Assembly: GCF_020966775.1 (NCBI RefSeq)
Contig: NZ_JAJKFV010000029.1
Location: forward strand, 1,997,372-2,061,371
Length of the DNA stretch: 64,000 bases
Reading direction: 5' to 3'
Source of the DNA: Rhodopirellula halodulae
GTDB taxonomy: Bacteria; Planctomycetota; Planctomycetia; Pirellulales; Pirellulaceae
Shown: piece by piece, positions 44,553-52,928 of the stretch
Position numbering within the stretch: position 1 is the first letter of the stretch
How the letters are laid out: each line of letters starts with the position of its first letter
Made by a program: the position numbers and the translations under genes
Notes under the pieces: model-generated
The model's input: the letters and a program-made list of their open reading frames with translations, nothing else
What the model was told of the DNA's origin: nothing
The model's database searches: none

Positions 44553-45071
44553 TCACCAAGGAACGATGGGGTTCTGCGTTGGTGGGCAGTACGGTTGCGG
44601 CTGAGGCACCCAGCGGCGATCGACGGCCTTCGCGTGACTATGGCTCGACTGGCCGAACCACGAATTCGCGGTCGAGTCCGATCGGGCGTTGGCCCAGTTG
44701 CCAAGTGCCTTGGCCGTGCTGCTGCTGTTGGAGTAGCCACCGAAGGTTCGAGCGGTGGAATTGGCGTGCGATCGAGCACCATAGCCGTTGGCGATCGAAC
44801 GCCCGTTGCTGATCGCAACGCCGCCGTTTGCGAAGGCGGAACTGTTTCCGCTGGCGAAGCCGCCGTTGCGACCGCTACCTCGCATGTCGGCTCGGGCGAA
44901 GCCGCCGTTGGTGGCGTAGGATCGGGCGTTCAGTCGCGTGTTGCCGCGGCCGCTGGCGGTTGAAATCGCCGTGCCTCCGTTGGAATAGCTGCTGGCGGTG
45001 ACCTGGGCGTTGGCTTCGGCGGTGAACAAGCAGATGGCTGCTACTGCGACGGCGATGAGACGAGCGGACAT
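44553..45071 (-). CDS. Secreted Asn/Gly/Ser/Ala-rich repetitive protein
   Basis: No family recognised. The 172-aa product has a clean signal peptide (MSARLIAVAVAAICLFTAEANAQ) and then a low-complexity body made of Asn-Gly-Gly and Ala/Ser/Thr units (SNGGTAIS, TNGGFARA, RNGGFASG, ANGGVAIS). Spacing is irregular but about 10-15 residues. The end is Pro-rich (PQPQPYCPP). A protein of similar style lies at 49333-49836. Such repeats suggest a surface or matrix protein; this is inference. Confidence 0.7.
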   Translation of the reverse strand: MSARLIAVAVAAICLFTAEANAQVTASSYSNGGTAISTASGRGNTRLNARSYATNGGFARADMRGSGRNGGFASGNSSAFANGGVAISNGRSIANGYGARSHANSTARTFGGYSNSSSTAKALGNWANARSDSTANSWFGQSSHSHAKAVDRRWVPQPQPYCPPTQNPIVPW

Positions 45072-45329
45072 GGTTGGGTTCCTCAGTCAGAGAGTTTCAA
45101 AGAATTTTCAAGACGTTGTTGTCTTCACCGGACCCTTGCGAGAAACCCGCGGATTGCCCCTCACTCAATCAAAATGTTTTTCCACTTTTTTCCTGACGAG
45201 ATCTTCTGGGGCCGCGATGGACGACGCGAAAAGTTGGGTTTCGGGTAAGCTTCCTTCAAGCCAGAAACGACGGTTTCCGCCCATCTGCGAAGGTGCGGCC
45301 AGTTGCCACCGAACGAATGAGGACCCGTT

Positions 45330-48300
45330 TTGTCGAATGAGAAGCAAGCGATCGCGGAGGACATTTTCTTCGACGCCATCGAATTGCCCTCCGAGAAACG
45401 CGAGGCTTTCTTGCAGGAACGATGCGGCGACGATGCGACGCTCCTGGCAATCGTTCGCGATTTGATCGCGGCGGACGAGGCCGCCCAAGGAGATCCGTTT
45501 TTGCAGTCTCGGTTCATGCCGGCGTCGCCATTGATGCAGATGCGGGGCGAGGAGTTCGGGGATACGAGCGATGGCGTTCCAACGGAGTACGAGGCCGTTC
45601 GTGAGACCGCTCGTTTCGAGATTCTCTCTCGCCACGAAGAAGGCGGCTTGGGTGAAGTTTTGGTGGCACACGATCGACAACTCGATCGGGAAGTGGCGAT
45701 CAAGCAGATACGACCTCAATGGAATGGCCACGAAGAAGCCAACGCTCGGTTTCTTCGCGAAGCCGAATTGACTGGAAGGTTGGAGCATCCCGGCATCGTC
45801 CCCGTCTACGCGATGGGAACATGGAAGGACGGACGGCCGTTCTACGCGATGCGTTTCATCGAGGGAAAAACGCTCCGCGAAGTGATTCACGAACATCGTG
45901 AAAAGTTGACTGCTTTGTCACCGTCAGATGTTTCATCGGTGAACGAACCGACTCGTGCGTTGCGAGATTTGCTGAATCGCTTTGTCGACGTTTGCAACAC
46001 GATCGAGTACGCCCACAGTCGCCGGATCATTCACCGCGACATCAAACCGGCCAACATCATGATCGGGCCGTATGGCGAGACGCTGGTGGTGGATTGGGGG
46101 TTGGCCAAGCAATTGGATGTACCGGAAGTTGATGGTCAAACCGGGGTGACGGATCAGAGCATCGCAACCGACAGTTCCACCGGTAGCGGTTCGCGAAACG
46201 GGTCCAATCACACGCGTGTCGGCGGCACAGTGGGGACGCCTCAATACATGAGCCCTGAACAGGCTCAAGGAAGAACGGACGAAGTCGGTATCGCGACCGA
46301 CGTGTATCTGCTGGGGGCAACGCTCTATCAAATTTTGACAGGCTCGCCGCCTCATCAAGATGATTCCGTCAGCCAGATTTTGCATCGGATTGAACAAGAC
46401 CAAATTGTTCCGCCGCGTCAGATCGATTCGAATGTGCCGGAGCCTTTGCAGGCGATCTGTCTGCACGCGATGGCGACTCGGCCGGCCGATCGGTACTCAA
46501 AGGCATCTGAATTGGCCGCGGATGTGGAACGATGGCTCGCTGATGAACCCGTGTCGGTTTTTCATGATCCGCTTCCAGTGCGGATGGGGCGTTGGGGGCG
46601 AAAGCATCGAACAATCGTGACCAGTGGGGCGGTTGCCGCCTTGTTATTGATGATCGGTTCCGTGGTCGGTGCGGGTATCTGGAGCTACGAAAGTTCTCGC
46701 AGAATCGCGGTCGAACGCGAACGGAACTTGAAGGAATTGGAGCTGCGAATCGCACGATCCAATCGGCTCAATGAAATTCGCAACGCCGTGGATTCGGCGT
46801 GGCAGGTCGCGACGCGAGAGATCGAGGTGAACCGATTTGAATCCGCGTTGGGTGTTTTGCAGCGGGCCCTGGTGACGCTGGAGGACCAAAGCGAAATGGA
46901 GTCGGCACGCGAACGCATCGCCGCGAAGGCTTCGCGATTGCAGCAACTGGTGACGTTCTATGACCAAGCGGAAAAGTCCGAGCAATTCGGCATCATGAGC
47001 CGCGATACTCAGGGCATCATGGCCGCCTCGGCGGCACTCAAGTCGTTGAATATTTGGCATCAGCGAGATTGGTGGAATCATTTGCCCGATGAAGACTTGT
47101 CACCACTGCAGCAGGAACAATTGCGATGGGACGCTTACCAACAATGGATCGTCTTGAATGGTTTGTTGGTGAAAACCATTGGCACGCGATTGTTTGGCGT
47201 GATGCAGGCATCGGAATCGAACTCCGAGTCCAACGATCGGTTGTGGAAAGCGGTGTTGGCGATGCAGACCAAAGCCGGAATCGCGGAAGCGGAAGCTTCC
47301 AAAGTCGTGAGTCAACGAATTGATTTGTTCCGGCAGGCCGAAGCGGTTCGCTGGTATCGTGGGATCGCGAATTTTCGTTTGGGCGAAGGCAAGTGGGTCA
47401 AGGCGGAGGAACTCAATACCGCTCGCAATGCGGCTGACGCGCAGAAGATCGGCATGATGTGTTTGTTGTCGGCGATGGACCCGTCCTTTCGAGTTGTCTT
47501 TCAAGACTACAAACACCGTGACGCGGTGACGGCGGGGTTGGAGCTTTTCGAGCGTTCCGCTTCGCTGCGCCCCAATCACTATTGGACGCAATTGACGCTC
47601 GCGCATATGCAGTACTTTTCGGCGATCCAACAACCGAAACTCGATTGGACGAGTTACTCGTTGGCCATTCAAACGTTTGGGCGATGCATCGCCATCAATC
47701 CGGAAAACTGCTTTGGCTACGCGGACCGCGCGGCGTTGTACCGCATGCAAACGGATTTGCTGCGAGACGACGAGACATTGGACGAATCAACCCGCGACGA
47801 ACGGGTGGAAGACCTGTTGCTATGGAGCATGCAGGACGCGGAGAAGGCTTACCGATTGGCCGATGAACAGCCTTGGGTCGGTTGGGTGTATGGAATGACG
47901 CTAGCGGCGATCGATCAAAACGAACGTGCGATCGATGTGTTTTTGGAAACGTGTCGGCAGTCGTTGTCGTTGGTTCCTGTGATGGATTCATCGCTCGTTG
48001 CGGCGGAAGATTTGCGTGGACGATCGGACGCGGTTCGATACGCCGAGCGGATGGTTGAGCTGCATCCGAACGAACCGATTTATCGAACGTTGTTAGCATC
48101 CATTCATTTGACTCGTCAGCAAAACGAGTTGGCGGAGGAAGTCCTTCAAACACTGTTCGACAGCCAATCAATTCAACAACTCACACCGCGTTTGATGGCA
48201 CACACCTACGCGGTCCGAGGAATGATTGAACTTTCCCGAGAGGCGATCGGAAACGCGGCGGACGATTTCGAAAAGGCGATCATGTTGGATGCGCACCATT

Positions 48301-49190
48301 TGTGGGCGGTTTATGGATCAGCCGTTTGTCATGATCGGTTGAGGCAACAACAAAACGCTTTGCAACTGTATCAACGAGCGTCCAAGCTGGCGACGATCAG
48401 CGAACACCAGGCGGCATGTTGGTTGGGAATCGGTCGGTCACAGGCGTTCTTGAAGCAATACGACGAAGCCGCCGAATCCATTCGCAAGGCAGTCGAGTTG
48501 CAACCAGGTTGCGAAGTGGTTGCTGCGATTCGTCCGCTTTACGAGCAACTAAAGCAATGGTCCAAGGCGTCTCATTCAAAGGATGAAATGAGACAGCTTG
48601 CCAATTGGATCAAGGAGATCAACGAGTTGCCCCGAGCGACTCGGGTGTTGATCGCGAACCAACAAATGGATGAGCCCTACCACGCGGCTTTGCTCAACGG
48701 TGGATTCGAACAGGGCGGATGGAATCATTGGGCCAACGATCGTGGCATCGCTTGGATCAATTCGCCTGGTTACCAGGGCCTCGCCAGCATCACGTCCTCT
48801 CTGTCGCACGGTGGCGATCACTCGCTGCGGATCGTTGGCGATCGGTTGCCAGATGAAGCGAAGGCAACAACCGATGCCACGATTGGTGGACGCACGCGGC
48901 AGATTTTTCCCATCCCAGAAAATTCACGATGCGTGGTTTCCTTGTGGGCCAAGGCGGATGGGTTGGCGGAGGATGCTTTGACCGTGGTGGTGGGCGGCTC
49001 GGAAGTGCCTGTTTCGTTGACGCTTGATGCGGGGACCTATGACTGGAAGCAATTCTCAACGGAAATTTACTTTGATCGGTCCCCCGATCCGACCCTGACC
49101 AGTTTCGCGATGGAGATTCAAATTCGGTCTCAGGGCGAAGGTGAAATCTGGTTGGATGATTTTGATGTGATGGTTTTCGATGTCGATTGA
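45330..49190 (+). CDS. Ser/Thr protein kinase with TM, TPR repeats and C-terminal ligand-binding-like domain
   Basis: This 1286-aa protein begins at a TTG; the start is supported by the usual planctomycete kinase leader (about 60 residues with FFDAIELPSEKREAFL). The kinase domain (about 95-395) has EEGGLGEV glycine loop, the ATP lysine K125, HRDIKPAN with catalytic D237, DWG in place of DFG, and GTPQYMSPEQAQG. A transmembrane helix lies near residues 430-452 (GAVAALLLMIGSVVGAGIW). The long outer part contains TPR-like helices (for example RLMAHTYAVRGMIEL, LWAVYGSAVCHDRL). The last 170 residues (NGGFEQGGWNHWAND onward) look like a carbohydrate-binding beta-sandwich. It probably senses an envelope signal and phosphorylates cytoplasmic targets. 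Confidence 0.92.
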   Translation: MSNEKQAIAEDIFFDAIELPSEKREAFLQERCGDDATLLAIVRDLIAADEAAQGDPFLQSRFMPASPLMQMRGEEFGDTSDGVPTEYEAVRETARFEILSRHEEGGLGEVLVAHDRQLDREVAIKQIRPQWNGHEEANARFLREAELTGRLEHPGIVPVYAMGTWKDGRPFYAMRFIEGKTLREVIHEHREKLTALSPSDVSSVNEPTRALRDLLNRFVDVCNTIEYAHSRRIIHRDIKPANIMIGPYGETLVVDWGLAKQLDVPEVDGQTGVTDQSIATDSSTGSGSRNGSNHTRVGGTVGTPQYMSPEQAQGRTDEVGIATDVYLLGATLYQILTGSPPHQDDSVSQILHRIEQDQIVPPRQIDSNVPEPLQAICLHAMATRPADRYSKASELAADVERWLADEPVSVFHDPLPVRMGRWGRKHRTIVTSGAVAALLLMIGSVVGAGIWSYESSRRIAVERERNLKELELRIARSNRLNEIRNAVDSAWQVATREIEVNRFESALGVLQRALVTLEDQSEMESARERIAAKASRLQQLVTFYDQAEKSEQFGIMSRDTQGIMAASAALKSLNIWHQRDWWNHLPDEDLSPLQQEQLRWDAYQQWIVLNGLLVKTIGTRLFGVMQASESNSESNDRLWKAVLAMQTKAGIAEAEASKVVSQRIDLFRQAEAVRWYRGIANFRLGEGKWVKAEELNTARNAADAQKIGMMCLLSAMDPSFRVVFQDYKHRDAVTAGLELFERSASLRPNHYWTQLTLAHMQYFSAIQQPKLDWTSYSLAIQTFGRCIAINPENCFGYADRAALYRMQTDLLRDDETLDESTRDERVEDLLLWSMQDAEKAYRLADEQPWVGWVYGMTLAAIDQNERAIDVFLETCRQSLSLVPVMDSSLVAAEDLRGRSDAVRYAERMVELHPNEPIYRTLLASIHLTRQQNELAEEVLQTLFDSQSIQQLTPRLMAHTYAVRGMIELSREAIGNAADDFEKAIMLDAHHLWAVYGSAVCHDRLRQQQNALQLYQRASKLATISEHQAACWLGIGRSQAFLKQYDEAAESIRKAVELQPGCEVVAAIRPLYEQLKQWSKASHSKDEMRQLANWIKEINELPRATRVLIANQQMDEPYHAALLNGGFEQGGWNHWANDRGIAWINSPGYQGLASITSSLSHGGDHSLRIVGDRLPDEAKATTDATIGGRTRQIFPIPENSRCVVSLWAKADGLAEDALTVVVGGSEVPVSLTLDAGTYDWKQFSTEIYFDRSPDPTLTSFAMEIQIRSQGEGEIWLDDFDVMVFDVD

Positions 49191-49332
49191 GCGAGAGAAA
49201 CACGGGGTTTTTGCGTTTTCTGAAATTTTCACTTTCCGTGAGGGGATGGATGACGGGATCTCGCATGGGTTGGTGAGGCGGCAAGAGTCAGCCGCACAAA
49301 TCACCTCTTAATCTTTTCAAGCGAGAAAACCC

Positions 49333-49836
49333 ATGTCCAACGTCATCTCTTTCAAAGTTCTCTCCGGTGTCGCCGCTTTGCTTTTCGTGGTCGCCACCAG
49401 TCAGTCCGCCTCCGCACAGCGAGCCGGTTCATTCGTCGATTTTCTGGGCGGCGGAGCGGGAGCTGGAGCGTCGGCATCCGGACAGTGGAAATTCGCGAAA
49501 TCGAAGGCGAGTTCCAAGAACGGCATGAACTTCGGTCATGGTTTCGCGGTGGGGGCGGGGCCGAACGGCATCGCTTTGTCCAATTCAATCGGTGCGGGCG
49601 GTGCACCCGGTGGCGTTGGCCATAACCTGAATCTGACCATCGGCCGCAACGGCACGCATGTCAGCCACGGCGGAGTGGTCTCGCAGGGGAACGGACGAAT
49701 CTACACCGGAGGTCAAACTGGAATTCGCAATGGAGGACCGCAGAATGGCCAGATCTACGGCGGAAGTACGTCCACCGGATTTGGTAGTCGAACACGAGCG
49801 TGGTCAAACAGCCGCACACGCTATTGGAATCGCTGA
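49333..49836 (+). CDS. Secreted Gly/Ser/Asn-rich protein of unknown function
   Basis: A signal peptide (MSNVISFKVLSGVAALLFVVATSQSASAQ) precedes a 138-residue Gly-rich body. Features include GGGAGAGASASG, SNGxGx and repeated H-G-G or N-G-G pairs (SHGGVVSQGNGRIYTGG, RNGGPQNGQIYGG). The C-terminus is Arg/Ser-rich. No cysteine, no catalytic motif. It resembles the 44553-45071 protein in composition but not in clear alignment. It follows the kinase gene by 142 bases. Confidence 0.7.
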   Translation: MSNVISFKVLSGVAALLFVVATSQSASAQRAGSFVDFLGGGAGAGASASGQWKFAKSKASSKNGMNFGHGFAVGAGPNGIALSNSIGAGGAPGGVGHNLNLTIGRNGTHVSHGGVVSQGNGRIYTGGQTGIRNGGPQNGQIYGGSTSTGFGSRTRAWSNSRTRYWNR

Positions 49837-49979
49837 TCGCGTTCTACCTTCCGCCGGCTGAATGCTGGTGGTCATATCGACGGACGAAGTCACTCGTCTG
49901 TTTTAATTGCGATCGCCGGAGGATCCAGCGATCGTTTTCGACGCAATCAACCACTCAATAATTTCGAATAGGTCTCGCC

Positions 49980-50666
49980 ATGTTCATCTCAGTCAAAAGC
50001 ATCACCGTTGCCGGCTTAATCGCTCTCGGAGTCTCTATCGGGCGAGCCGACGAACCCAGATCCGAGAGCCAAGCAGCGACGGCAGATCCCACGGTTCAGT
50101 CAGAAGCCCCTTCTCACTCACAATGGAAAGTTCAGTTCACTCGTGTGCCTCCGTTGCTGGCGATGCACCTACCGATGCTGGCTGGCGACCGCGGTTTGGT
50201 CGTGAAGGAAGCGGCAGACGAAAATGCCGACAACAGCCTGTTGCAGGAGGGAGACGTGTTGTTGGCGGTGGACGGTCGACCCGTCGTCGCTGGGCAAGGT
50301 GTTCCGCCCATGGCCCAAGCGAACATCGTAGTGCTACGTCGTGGTCAAACGGTCACGTTGCCTGTTCATTCCTTGGATAGGCAGATGCGTCAAAGTCACG
50401 GCCCGCAACCCGGCTTCGCTCCGTATCCATGGTTGCAGCCTCGTTTCGCGGCTCCGAGTGTCACCGCGTCTGCCTATGCGGGTGGCAACGAGAGTGTTTC
50501 GGTCAGTCAGAACGGTGATCAGATTCTGATTGAGATGGATCTGCCACAACTGCACAACGGACCACTTCGCTACCGAGGAACACGCGAGCAAATTGAAGAG
50601 GAGGTTCGCAACAGCAACCTTGCTCCCGCGGTCCGACGCCGTGTGATGGAAGCGATCGGTCAGTGA
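49980..50666 (+). CDS. Secreted PDZ-like domain protein
   Basis: The 228-aa product has a signal peptide (to about residue 23, GRADEP). A PDZ-like domain spans about residues 60-130, with LVVKEAADENADNSLLQEGDVLLAVDGRPV and PVHSLDRQ strands. A Pro/Gly-rich linker follows, then a beta-rich and helical tail with EQIEEEVRNS. Its stop overlaps a possible GTG start of the sigma gene (GTGA), so coupling is possible. The partner peptide is unknown. Confidence 0.72.
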   Translation: MFISVKSITVAGLIALGVSIGRADEPRSESQAATADPTVQSEAPSHSQWKVQFTRVPPLLAMHLPMLAGDRGLVVKEAADENADNSLLQEGDVLLAVDGRPVVAGQGVPPMAQANIVVLRRGQTVTLPVHSLDRQMRQSHGPQPGFAPYPWLQPRFAAPSVTASAYAGGNESVSVSQNGDQILIEMDLPQLHNGPLRYRGTREQIEEEVRNSNLAPAVRRRVMEAIGQ

Positions 50667-50713
50667 GCTTATGCGAGTTTCGAACGGCCAGCCAAATTGA
50701 GTCACCAAGCGTT

Positions 50714-51394
50714 ATGCTAGGGCAGCCTGCCAAGAAGCCTTGGCGAGTTCAAACTGTTGTCCCGACTGATTTGATGCAGTCATCTACACCAACTTTCATC
50801 GAGATCAATTGCGTGAACCAGCCTGAAACCGAAGTCTCGATGTTGTTGCAGCAGGTCAAAGGCGGTGACGAGGCGGCCCGTGAAAAATTGTTTGTGACGT
50901 TGCAGTCGGAACTGCGTGACATGGCGGGGGCCTTGATGCGAGGCGAACGTCCCGATCACACGCTGCAGGCGACCGCACTGGTCAATGAAGCTTGTATTCG
51001 ATTGCTGGACACGGAAGCACTGAAGAATGTTTCTGACCGGCGATACATGTTCGGCATGGCCAATCGGGCCATGCGACAGATCTTGATCGATCACGCTCGT
51101 CGCCGTCGAACCAACAAACGCGGTGGCGAATATCAGCGAGCATCCTTGGATGTCGTGCTGGACAACTTCGAGGCCAGCAATCGTTGTCAATACGAGGATC
51201 TCGAGTCGGCGTTGGATGCTTTGGAACAGGACTCACCACGCCAACGCGAAGTGGTCGAACTGCGTTTCTTTTCTGGGCTGACCAACGAAGAAGTCGCGAA
51301 GGTGTTGGAGATCAGCGTCGCAACCGTCGAACGTGATTGGCGAATGGCTCGGGCGAAGCTCTTCAATCAGCTTCGAGGCGAGTCTAACGATTGA
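50714..51394 (+). CDS. ECF-type RNA polymerase sigma factor (planctomycete TIGR02999-like)
   Basis: Region 2 is seen in LVNEACIRLLD and MANRAMRQILIDHARRRRTNKRGG, and region 4 in LDALEQDSPRQREVVELRFFSGLTNEEVAKVLEISVATVERDW, with the recognition helix near its end. The DHARRRRTNKRGG stretch is the mark of the ECF_sub/TIGR02999 class, which is abundant in planctomycetes. The start is uncertain: GTG at 50663, ATG at 50714 or ATG at 50774; the domain begins after the last of these. No classical anti-sigma gene is adjacent; the PDZ protein is the upstream neighbour. The end overlaps the convergent gene by 11 bases. Confidence 0.87.
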   Translation: MLGQPAKKPWRVQTVVPTDLMQSSTPTFIEINCVNQPETEVSMLLQQVKGGDEAAREKLFVTLQSELRDMAGALMRGERPDHTLQATALVNEACIRLLDTEALKNVSDRRYMFGMANRAMRQILIDHARRRRTNKRGGEYQRASLDVVLDNFEASNRCQYEDLESALDALEQDSPRQREVVELRFFSGLTNEEVAKVLEISVATVERDWRMARAKLFNQLRGESND

Positions 51395-51887
51395 AAAGGT
51401 CTTGGGGCGATGCGAGCGCTTGCTCCGCGTCCGGCGTGATGCGTGGAAGTTCGTCGTCGTGGGTTTGTTCACGTGGTGGTTGCCCATAACGTCGACGCAA
51501 TTCGATCTGTTTGGAACGAGCTTCCTCCAAGTTGTGGCTCATCTCCGAGGTGCTTTGACGCGCGTTGGCGAGCAGTTTCGAGACAGATCCCAATCGAGGG
51601 TCAGCACGATTCGGCGAGACGGTGGCGATGGATTCGAGTTGCGATTGAGCCAAGGCCAATTGCTGCTCCAGCTCATTGACGCGAGCTTCTGCGTTCTCGA
51701 CCTCTGCCAACGTCGTTTCATCAAATTCGACGCCCGCGAAAGAACGAATCCCCGCGTCCTGCAGCACTTCGCGAACGGTGCTGGGCGTGAGGAACAACGC
51801 CAACATCGCCAAGACCAAGATCAATTCACGAATGGCGGCGAAGCCGTCTCGGACGGACGCGAAAGACGAAGTTTGCGGTTCTTCCAT
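51384..51887 (-). CDS. Single-pass membrane protein with coiled coil
   Basis: No family recognised. The 167-aa protein (ATG at 51887; earlier in-frame starts exist but their leader is not protein-like) has a transmembrane segment near residues 21-38 (ELILVLAMLALFLTPS), followed by a long coiled coil (about 60-150; ENAEARVNELEQQLALAQSQLESI and QSTSEMSHNLEEARSKQIELRRRYG). The C-terminus is acidic. Its gene ends 11 bases inside the sigma gene on the opposite strand. Confidence 0.72.
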   Translation of the reverse strand: MEEPQTSSFASVRDGFAAIRELILVLAMLALFLTPSTVREVLQDAGIRSFAGVEFDETTLAEVENAEARVNELEQQLALAQSQLESIATVSPNRADPRLGSVSKLLANARQSTSEMSHNLEEARSKQIELRRRYGQPPREQTHDDELPRITPDAEQALASPQDLFNR

Positions 51888-52109
51888 GGAAGATTTCTCG
51901 ATGAGACATGCACTGGAACACATTCTTTCTTTCGCGATTTTTGCGCGATTGCGTCTAGACCGAATTCGCACTTTCCAAGGTTGCCACGGACGCGGATGTC
52001 TCGCCGACGAGTAGTTGCGGTGAAGTTCCAGTGAAGCTTTGAAGGTTCAAACGCAAAAAACTTTACGGTGTGATCAGCACCTCCTACCGTGGGGGTGACG
52101 GAGAGTGTC

Positions 52110-52928
52110 ATGAACCAGCGATCCAATCCACCGGCCCACGAGTCGACTCGCACACAGGCGACGTCCATACAGTCGACTCCCACACTACCAACTTCCACAC
52201 AGGCGAACAGCCAGCCTCGGCAAACACCCATGATCGTTCTGAAATGGGACGAACAGATCAATGGTCAGTTGCCCAGGGGCAGTTTGGAGCAATTAAAAGA
52301 ACGCTTGCGGCGAGGGATCGATCACGCCGAGGGAAAAGTCATCCTGGATCTACGTTCAGTCAGTGGGGTGCCATCCAAGCTGCTGTTATTCCTGGATCAT
52401 GTGGTTGCCTACGCAAAAGGGCGGCGTGTCGACATTGCCTTTCGTGCGACCGATCCCGATATGCGGCGAATGCTGCGACGGTGGAGCGGGCCCAGTGCGA
52501 TTCAAGAACCCGCGGAAGTGCTTTCGATCTATGACCTGCACTCGTCGACAATCGACGCAGCAACCAACGTCATCCGCAGTTCGCTAGAAAAGCGTTCCGA
52601 AACGAAGGTGGCGGATCCTCGACCGAAAACCGCCGCTTCGGTTTCCAATCCTGATCCTGCTAAGAAACGTCGCCGACGAACTCGGAAAGACTATGCCGTT
52701 TTCGCCGGAGTGATTTTGGCGGGAACCACTGTGGTCGCGACGGTGGAATACTGGATCATCTTCCACGATTCAGCACCCACCCTGGCGTCTCCCATCAAGT
52801 CGTTTGAAGGAGACAAGAATGAGATGCTGAAAGAAAGGGACAACAAGATTCGGCAACTCGAACGCGCGTTGGCCAAGGCTCAGCGCGAGCGAGACGATTG
52901 GAAGAAAGCGGCGAATGAATCTCGGTGA
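52110..52928 (+). CDS. STAS-like domain protein with TM and coiled-coil tail
   Basis: The ATG at 52110 follows GGAGA; a GTG 21 bases upstream is the alternative. The first 40 residues are Thr/Ser/Gln-rich. Residues about 40-145 look like a STAS fold: MIVLKWDEQINGQL, then VILDLRSVSGVPSKLLLFLDHVVAYAKGRRVDIAFRATDPDMRRML. The usual DSSG phosphorylation site is replaced by GVPSK, so phosphorylation like SpoIIAA is unlikely unless the serine shifts. A basic linker, a TM segment (about 198-220) and a coiled coil (KERDNKIRQLERALAKAQRERD) finish the 272-aa protein. It is divergent from the coiled-coil membrane protein. Confidence 0.7.
   Translation: MNQRSNPPAHESTRTQATSIQSTPTLPTSTQANSQPRQTPMIVLKWDEQINGQLPRGSLEQLKERLRRGIDHAEGKVILDLRSVSGVPSKLLLFLDHVVAYAKGRRVDIAFRATDPDMRRMLRRWSGPSAIQEPAEVLSIYDLHSSTIDAATNVIRSSLEKRSETKVADPRPKTAASVSNPDPAKKRRRRTRKDYAVFAGVILAGTTVVATVEYWIIFHDSAPTLASPIKSFEGDKNEMLKERDNKIRQLERALAKAQRERDDWKKAANESR

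Follow-up and report, generated by a model that had tools for sequence, protein, structure and literature searches.

A conserved planctomycete gene module consistent with a kinase-sigma factor switch for secreted beta-sheet proteins

Which of the genes around a large membrane kinase in Rhodopirellula halodulae work together, and what might they control? The window analyzed here is a stretch of 64,000 nt from the 6.6-Mb R. halodulae genome, and coordinates below are window positions. The locus adjoins hisE/hisG and encodes a 1286-amino-acid (aa) Ser/Thr kinase between two Gly-rich secreted proteins (GN1 and GN2), followed by a PDZ-like secreted protein, an extracytoplasmic function (ECF) sigma factor, a coiled-coil membrane protein and a STAS-like membrane protein, all of which the initial annotation had joined into one signaling system. 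We find that the genes for GN1, the kinase, GN2, the PDZ-like protein and the ECF sigma factor are a conserved module in some planctomycetes. The reading that we favor, with a probability of roughly 0.65, is that the kinase activates the ECF43-like sigma factor, which in turn switches on the secreted beta-sheet proteins, making the locus an envelope switch of one kinase and one sigma factor.

We favor this switch because the kinase and ECF genes occur in the same 5 of 12 congeners, together with GN1, GN2 and the PDZ-like gene; because GN1 and GN2 are both present in 18 of 149 family genomes and in all nine with a near-full-length match to the kinase ectodomain; and because four Stieleria-type genomes keep the genes as a collinear block. 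Further reasons are that the QATA motif, which is that of kinase-activated ECF43 factors, is present in 14/14 close sigma factor orthologues, that GN1 and GN2 share an upstream element in six carriers which recurs in other genera, and that a different element is found where the neighboring ECF differs.

Layout and conservation of the gene module

Every open reading frame (ORF) listed in the initial annotation is present where it was placed. GN1 is divergent from the kinase gene, which is followed on the same strand by GN2, the PDZ-like gene and the ECF gene, in that order. The features of the module are as follows.

44553..45071, minus strand: GN1, Gly/Asn/Ser/Ala-rich secreted protein, 172 aa (ORF, family homologues, alignment)
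45137..45163, minus strand: promoter-like element TGAGGGG-N13-TCTCGCA, 92 bp from the GN1 ATG (carrier alignments, genome scan)
45330..49190, plus strand: transmembrane Ser/Thr kinase, 1286 aa, TTG start (PF00069; orthologues in congeners)
45639..46499, plus strand: kinase domain, residues 104-390 (PF00069; motifs EVAIKQI at 121, HRDIKPAN at 235, VVDWG at 253)
46611..46682, plus strand: hydrophobic (transmembrane) helix, residues 428-451 (sequence hydrophobicity)
46692..48659, plus strand: helical tetratricopeptide repeat (TPR) ectodomain, residues about 455-1110 (TPR matches, AlphaFold model, structure matches)
48669..49187, plus strand: C-terminal CBM_4_9-like beta domain, residues 1114-1286 (PF02018 matches; model strands)
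49239..49265, plus strand: promoter-like element TGAGGGG-N13-TCTCGCA, 94 bp from the GN2 ATG (carrier alignments, genome scan)
49333..49836, plus strand: GN2, Gly-rich secreted protein, 167 aa (family homologues; predicted beta meander of about ten strands)
49980..50666, plus strand: PDZ-like secreted protein, 228 aa (weak PDZ match; kept in five congeners)
50813..51394, plus strand: ECF43-like sigma factor, 193 aa, inferred GTG start (PF07638, TIGR02999, motif)
50972-50974, plus strand: Thr54 codon of the QATA motif (read from the inferred GTG start)

Below, G-numbers, CA13 and K23_9 label compared genomes and L-numbers compared stretches; the six carriers are the window's genome and the congeners G002, G004, G005, G007 and G010. 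In these five congeners the five genes recur jointly, with full-length kinase orthologues of 70-71% identity and close ECF orthologues of 87-92%; the next ECF match in the genus is 47% identical. G002, G004 and G005 have GN1, GN2 and the PDZ, ECF and coiled-coil genes located with the kinase, and in G007 the kinase half and the ECF half lie on different contigs, both pieces ending at a break. The gap between GN2 and the PDZ-like gene holds extra sequence in congeners (L070:11365-12232) and looks as if a dispersed repeat lay there (G010: L074/L075, contigs C51 and C38); this is where the G010 block is split and where, in G007, a contig break falls. Around hisE/hisG in the seven non-carrier congeners (20 kb each, except two stretches of 13.9 and 16.6 kb), none of GN1, GN2 and the PDZ, ECF, coiled-coil and STAS genes was matched, and one stretch gave a weak match to the kinase domain. 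Among named records, the closest module-bearing relative is Rhodopirellula europaea 6C.

Across the 149 family genomes, GN2 was found in 19 (one weakly, G033) and GN1 in 20; their co-occurrence gives a Fisher p of about 5e-20, uncorrected for shared ancestry. A GN2-profile scan of one genome each of 84,980 species, which was pattern-based and can miss members, returned 16 loci, all in planctomycete records, and 9 of these 16 named loci also carry the PDZ-like gene. The four Stieleria-type records (TBK1r, SM50, S. sedimenti and JC639) share a single-strand order of VWA protein, c9, kinase, GN2, PDZ, GN1, graspetide-type precursor, ATP-grasp and ECF. The VWA-domain membrane protein and the secreted c9 are encoded directly upstream of the kinase at these loci, and the window's locus has neither.

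L195:3887-5892, L196:3714-5617 and L199:3511-5498, same strand as the kinase: VWA and c9 genes at Stieleria-type loci

The initial annotation extended the system to the two genes beyond the sigma factor gene, of which the coiled-coil gene is convergent with the ECF gene and the STAS-like gene is next.

51384..51971, minus strand: coiled-coil membrane protein, doubtful member and genus-level neighbor (kept in five congeners only)
52089..52928, plus strand: STAS-like membrane protein, judged outside the module (none in five module-bearing congeners)

That these two are working members of a larger system, for example through a STAS-type partner switch, is scarcely credible. They are adjacent to the module in the window's genome, and the coiled-coil gene is kept in 5/5 module-bearing congeners; against this, the coiled-coil query has no match at the compared loci outside the genus, and none of the five module-bearing congeners has the STAS-like gene, which we therefore rejected as a member. 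Its protein matches PF01740 at an E of 0.0032, below the Pfam cut-off; of 13 genus genomes, only the window's and that of the non-carrier G011 (34% identity) encode it. It has a transmembrane segment and a C-terminal end that looks like a coiled coil; in the two congeners with ORFs listed, a different gene, lactonase-like by eye, takes its place. The proposal that the neighbors are conserved together thus holds for GN1, kinase, GN2, PDZ and ECF, within the genus for the coiled-coil gene, and fails for the STAS-like gene. We call the product of 49980-50666 only PDZ-like because its match to PF00595 (E = 0.013; 16.3 bits against a cut-off of 23.2) falls below cut-off.

A sigma factor with an ECF43-type motif and a kinase with a TPR ectodomain

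Searches confirmed the annotated ECF sigma factor as such (PF07638, E = 5e-72; TIGR02999, E = 1.6e-66; sigma2 plus sigma4 architecture) and moved its start. Translation probably begins at GTG 50813 rather than at 50663, in agreement with the MN.P starts of its orthologues. The sigma2.2 region reads QATALVNE in 14/14 close orthologues, and the uncharged QATA is found in the window too, where the factor lacks acidic residues at the DAED position. Other sigma factors use these acidic sigma2.2 residues for binding the RNA polymerase core. According to the passages available from two papers, the ECF43 factors EcfP and EcfK carry in their place an uncharged motif of the QTTA/QATE/STTA type, which holds a threonine phosphorylated by the linked kinase (PMC8999054, PMC13147305). 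The T51A form of EcfK was still functional in vivo, and linker residues matter, in the part of the latter paper seen (PMC13147305). A Ser/Thr kinase gene lies near the ECF gene in the congeners and the named relatives, although it is not adjacent in every genome. The ECF architecture, the sigma2.2 motif and the kinase neighborhood lead us to regard the window's factor as putatively ECF43-like.

The kinase itself combines a PF00069 domain (E = 2.1e-30), TPR matches and one strong hydrophobic helix at about residues 428-451, as the initial annotation had described; the sugar-binding-like domain that it added appears only as a weak match to CBM_4_9. Against PF02018, 8/8 aligned members match at E up to 1 (best member, 9.1e-5), with the window copy, at E = 0.21, below cut-off. 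Sequence matches in the Protein Data Bank (PDB) up to E = 1 included no carbohydrate-binding module except one chitin-binding-domain chain (E = 0.6). The weak CBM_4_9-like match is the sole basis for a glycan signal, which it faintly suggests. An AlphaFold model of the ectodomain (8 sequences, 827 residues; mean predicted local distance difference test [pLDDT], 73.0) shows a helical array followed by a beta domain, and TPR proteins are its best structural matches, occupying the whole match lists. Between the window and Rubripirellula, the ectodomain is 49% and the kinase domain 67% identical; this faster divergence is in keeping with a sensor.

Near-full-length matches to the Rubripirellula ectodomain occur in 9/149 family genomes (G000, G004, G172, G089, G169, G178, G120, G159 and G144) at 222 bits or more, the next genome scoring 67.7 bits. 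Some match was found in 67/149, and all but those nine are short.

A shared promoter-like element before the secreted genes

In the aligned intergenic regions of the six carriers, TGAGGGG-N13-TCTCGCA precedes both GN1 and GN2; its blocks are conserved while its spacers vary, and both G010 copies deviate at the final base of the first block. Two exact matches occur in the window's genome, namely the GN1 and GN2 sites, and two others have one mismatch, so that a large regulon there was rejected. Downstream of the element, both GN leaders contain inverted repeats seen by eye (45110-45125, AAGAC/GTCTT; 49278-49295, GCGGC/GCCGC), which perhaps form mRNA hairpins.

A score built on the genus alone was applied to other genera; p values come from 5,520 windows across the tested loci, the test regions among them, and gene starts are approximate. 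Among 14 GN upstream regions of seven other genomes, p was 0.0014 or lower in 4 and 0.013 in 4; in the 18 from nine genomes that lack the ectodomain, it was 0.013 once, 0.096 once and at least 0.39 in 16. A position matrix built from 16 sites (T-N-AGGGG, spacer of 15-16, CGCAGGT) was then run on six untrained named loci, and in 5/6 its two best matches stood before GN2 and GN1. In the sixth, Roseiconus, they stood before GN2 and the graspetide-type precursor. These loci are not six independent tests because they are related to each other and to the training genomes, and the GN2 site of JC639 is identical to that of G178, a training genome.

Could the shared sequence simply be a duplicated ancestral upstream region, with co-inherited surface genes lying beside an uncoupled kinase/ECF pair? 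The nearly equal distances of the element to the two start codons (92 and 94 bp) and the relatedness of the carriers would fit this. We nonetheless consider it quite improbable, since the blocks are kept while the spacers vary, the set stays together though gene order and strand differ between genera, and the elements of a second lineage, though likewise a matched pair, are different.

That lineage comprises G023, G109, CA13 and G145, in which the kinase adjoins an ECF only 25-27% identical to the window's. Here GN1 and GN2 have in common TGTCCCCT-N15-CGC, first noticed in CA13 and G023 among shared gapped words and uncorrected for the number of words tried. It was then found before GN1 and GN2 of G109 (near-identical to G023), G145, G157, G099 and G141; outside G023, G109 and CA13, no other site of the stretch outscored the GN site in 6/8 cases, GN1 of G157 and GN1 of G099 falling short. 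The second element was not seen at the GN genes of G107 and G154. In five control stretches that carry the first element, second-element scores did not exceed 11; in one of these, G178b, a score of 10 fell about 220 bp ahead of GN1. G145, CA13, G023 and G109 have, in addition, a close variant of the second element before a gene that diverges from the ECF gene and encodes a secreted, PDZ-looking protein.

L160:8925 and 10427; L154:11192(-) and 9674(-); L164:6409: second-element sites in CA13-type genomes

In both lineages, therefore, a matched element of two blocks stands before the same secreted genes, and a different kinase-linked ECF goes with a different element, a pairing seen in G023, G109, CA13 and G145.

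An alternative hypothesis is that GN1 and GN2 are co-regulated by another regulator that binds the element, the ECF/kinase pair being a linked neighbor with other targets. Read on the opposite strand, the first block of the second element (TCCCCTT) nearly reproduces the window-type AAGGGG block, as might be expected of a regulator site, and the element is absent before the kinase, PDZ and ECF genes of the window block; therefore, no direct autoregulation is seen. Yet the block spacing of 15-16 bases suits a -35/-10 pair, the element changes along with the kinase-linked ECF, and no further conserved regulator gene was found in the block. On balance, another regulator seems unlikely, if less so than a duplicated upstream region.

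Points weighing against the switch

Several observations count against the kinase-sigma switch that we prefer. G089, G144 and G169 have no ECF gene near the GN genes in the compared stretches, their whole genomes not having been searched for ECF, which would also suit another regulator. The ectodomain matches of G120, G159 and G144 are 28-29% identical and distant from GN1/GN2, and G178 has a second copy (31%) besides its orthologue; given this low identity, this distance and G178's similar extra copy, these three may represent paralogues. The two halves of the module, kinase and ECF, lie on separate contigs in G010; since the PDZ/ECF half is located within a contig of 294 kb, a genuine rearrangement may have occurred. 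As to the element, one exact match each also occurs in the non-carriers G006 and G011 and a third in G007, and the genus-only score gave p of 0.096 or worse in 6/14 GN regions (0.096 in 5, 0.40 in 1). Seven module genomes contain 16 exact matches of the pattern, 8 at GN1 or GN2 and 8 elsewhere; a reversed control gave 10, i.e., there is no genome-wide excess outside the module.

Allowing up to two mismatches, a longer pattern matched 17 times in the seven genomes (9 times at GN genes) and 12 times in the control. Of the 8 exact matches away from GN1 and GN2, three lie in G169 (L211, L217, L220), where the genes behind them encode a secreted PDZ-looking protein and two nearly identical Gly/Pro-rich proteins that are also secreted; another lies before a GN1-like ORF in G178 (L219). 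These genes are possible extra targets in Stieleria-like genomes, and the remaining four matches look unrelated.

Proposed mechanism and secreted output

Under the switch, the membrane kinase would sense the state of the envelope or the extracellular space through its TPR and CBM_4_9-like ectodomain and, by analogy with studied ECF43 members, would phosphorylate Thr54 within the observed motif of the sigma factor. The activated factor would recognize the paired elements before GN1 and GN2. Gene order and strand suggest that read-through from the GN2 element into the PDZ-like and sigma factor genes could provide feedback. The products would be secreted beta-sheet proteins and a PDZ-like partner, which most likely form or condition a surface matrix. 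The single signaling system of the initial annotation is thereby retained in reduced form, on the ECF43-type sigma2.2 motif and the elements shared by GN1 and GN2, with the STAS-like gene outside.

The GN2 model (17 sequences; mean pLDDT, 88.7) has ten beta strands in order after a signal helix. Its fold gave weak, partial PDB matches, mainly to outer-membrane barrels (Foldseek best E, 0.11; VIA-align best Z, 6.9, to part of FhaC), and because these are weak we neither claim nor deny a known fold.

A graspetide-type pair in relatives

In Rubripirellula, Stieleria, Roseiconus, K23_9 and others, the locus has in addition a graspetide-type precursor gene adjoined by an ATP-grasp gene. This pair is upstream of the ECF gene in Rubripirellula, Stieleria and Roseiconus; the compared stretch of K23_9 has the pair and no ECF, and the pair was not found in the window's genome.

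L191:11446-13394, L195:12517-14158 and L198:12265-13995, with equivalents in L192-L194, L196, L197 and L199: graspetide-type pair

Strong ATP-grasp matches occur in 7/149 family genomes, all with GN1 and GN2; three others are weak. The ATP-grasp profile matches PDB entry 7drm best (E = 9.2e-17), which we take to be PsnB, the plesiocin enzyme, and microviridin-type enzymes more weakly; TIGR04187, TIGR04185 and TIGR04184 match 9/9 members with E no higher than 1e-3, scores that fall well short of the curated cut-offs. A Pfam search of the Rubripirellula pair returned no match. All nine precursor copies contain 6-10 TTxxxxEE-type motifs (T[ST]xxxx[ED]E), and eight carry an RR.FLR-type signal, the ninth (Roseiconus) reading RRGLLR; the five read are 218-274 aa long. 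The product is probably cross-linked, and its signal suggests export via the twin-arginine translocation (Tat) pathway.

We advance tentatively, at somewhat below even odds, a broader picture of a surface-matrix system under kinase-sigma control. Beta-meander proteins and PDZ-like partners would be joined in Stieleria and allies by a protein bearing ester cross-links at 6-10 repeats, formed in the cytoplasm before its export in folded form through Tat, and the sigma factor and its element would have been exchanged together between lineages. The interest, if this is true, lies in a graspetide serving as a structural or surface protein rather than as a small inhibitor. If active, the pair would bring into this peptide class a larger protein, one that bears a Tat-type export signal. 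A search of open-license PubMed Central papers returned none on graspetides and Planctomycetes together, which is no proof of novelty; PMC12078418 gave no match to RiPP (ribosomally synthesized and posttranslationally modified peptide), graspetide, microviridin, sigma factor or lanthipeptide.

Comparison with known systems

Plesiocin cores read TTxxxxEE, and the related loci, as distinct from the window, resemble plesiocin-type graspetides in having tandem cores of this type beside an ATP-grasp enzyme. Their precursors differ in length, in having 6-10 cores and a Tat-type signal, and in their link to a kinase/ECF module.

In planctomycetes, the groups ECF59, ECF61, ECF62 and ECF217 are predicted to be kinase-controlled, and they keep the acidic sigma2.2 residues that the window's factor lacks, in the portion of PMC8999054 available. 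The ECF adjoining the kinase in CA13 has an acidic TEDVFQNA at sigma2.2 and may belong among these groups. The literature passages at hand give no target genes or promoters for planctomycete kinase-controlled ECF factors. Candidates for the phospho-site and the promoter can now be named, along with a short target list, also in the cultured Rubripirellula obstinata and Stieleria sedimenti, and the pathway is therefore directly testable. They also offer a first handle on two families of secreted beta-sheet proteins with no assigned role.

The closest known systems are EcfP/PknT of Vibrio parahaemolyticus and EcfK/PknS of Xanthomonas citri, which share with the window a Ser/Thr kinase near an ECF factor whose uncharged sigma2.2 motif contains a phospho-acceptor threonine, as described in the passages seen. 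In contrast to these pairs, the window's kinase has an ectodomain of TPRs with a CBM_4_9-like end, and several genes lie between kinase and ECF. The linked genes here encode secreted sheet proteins, whereas the outputs of EcfP and EcfK, according to the same part of PMC8999054, are polymyxin resistance and a type VI system. The locus would thus work like the ECF43/kinase pairs; its novelty resides in the secreted products, in the candidate promoters and the way these change with the sigma factor, and in the linkage to graspetide-type genes.

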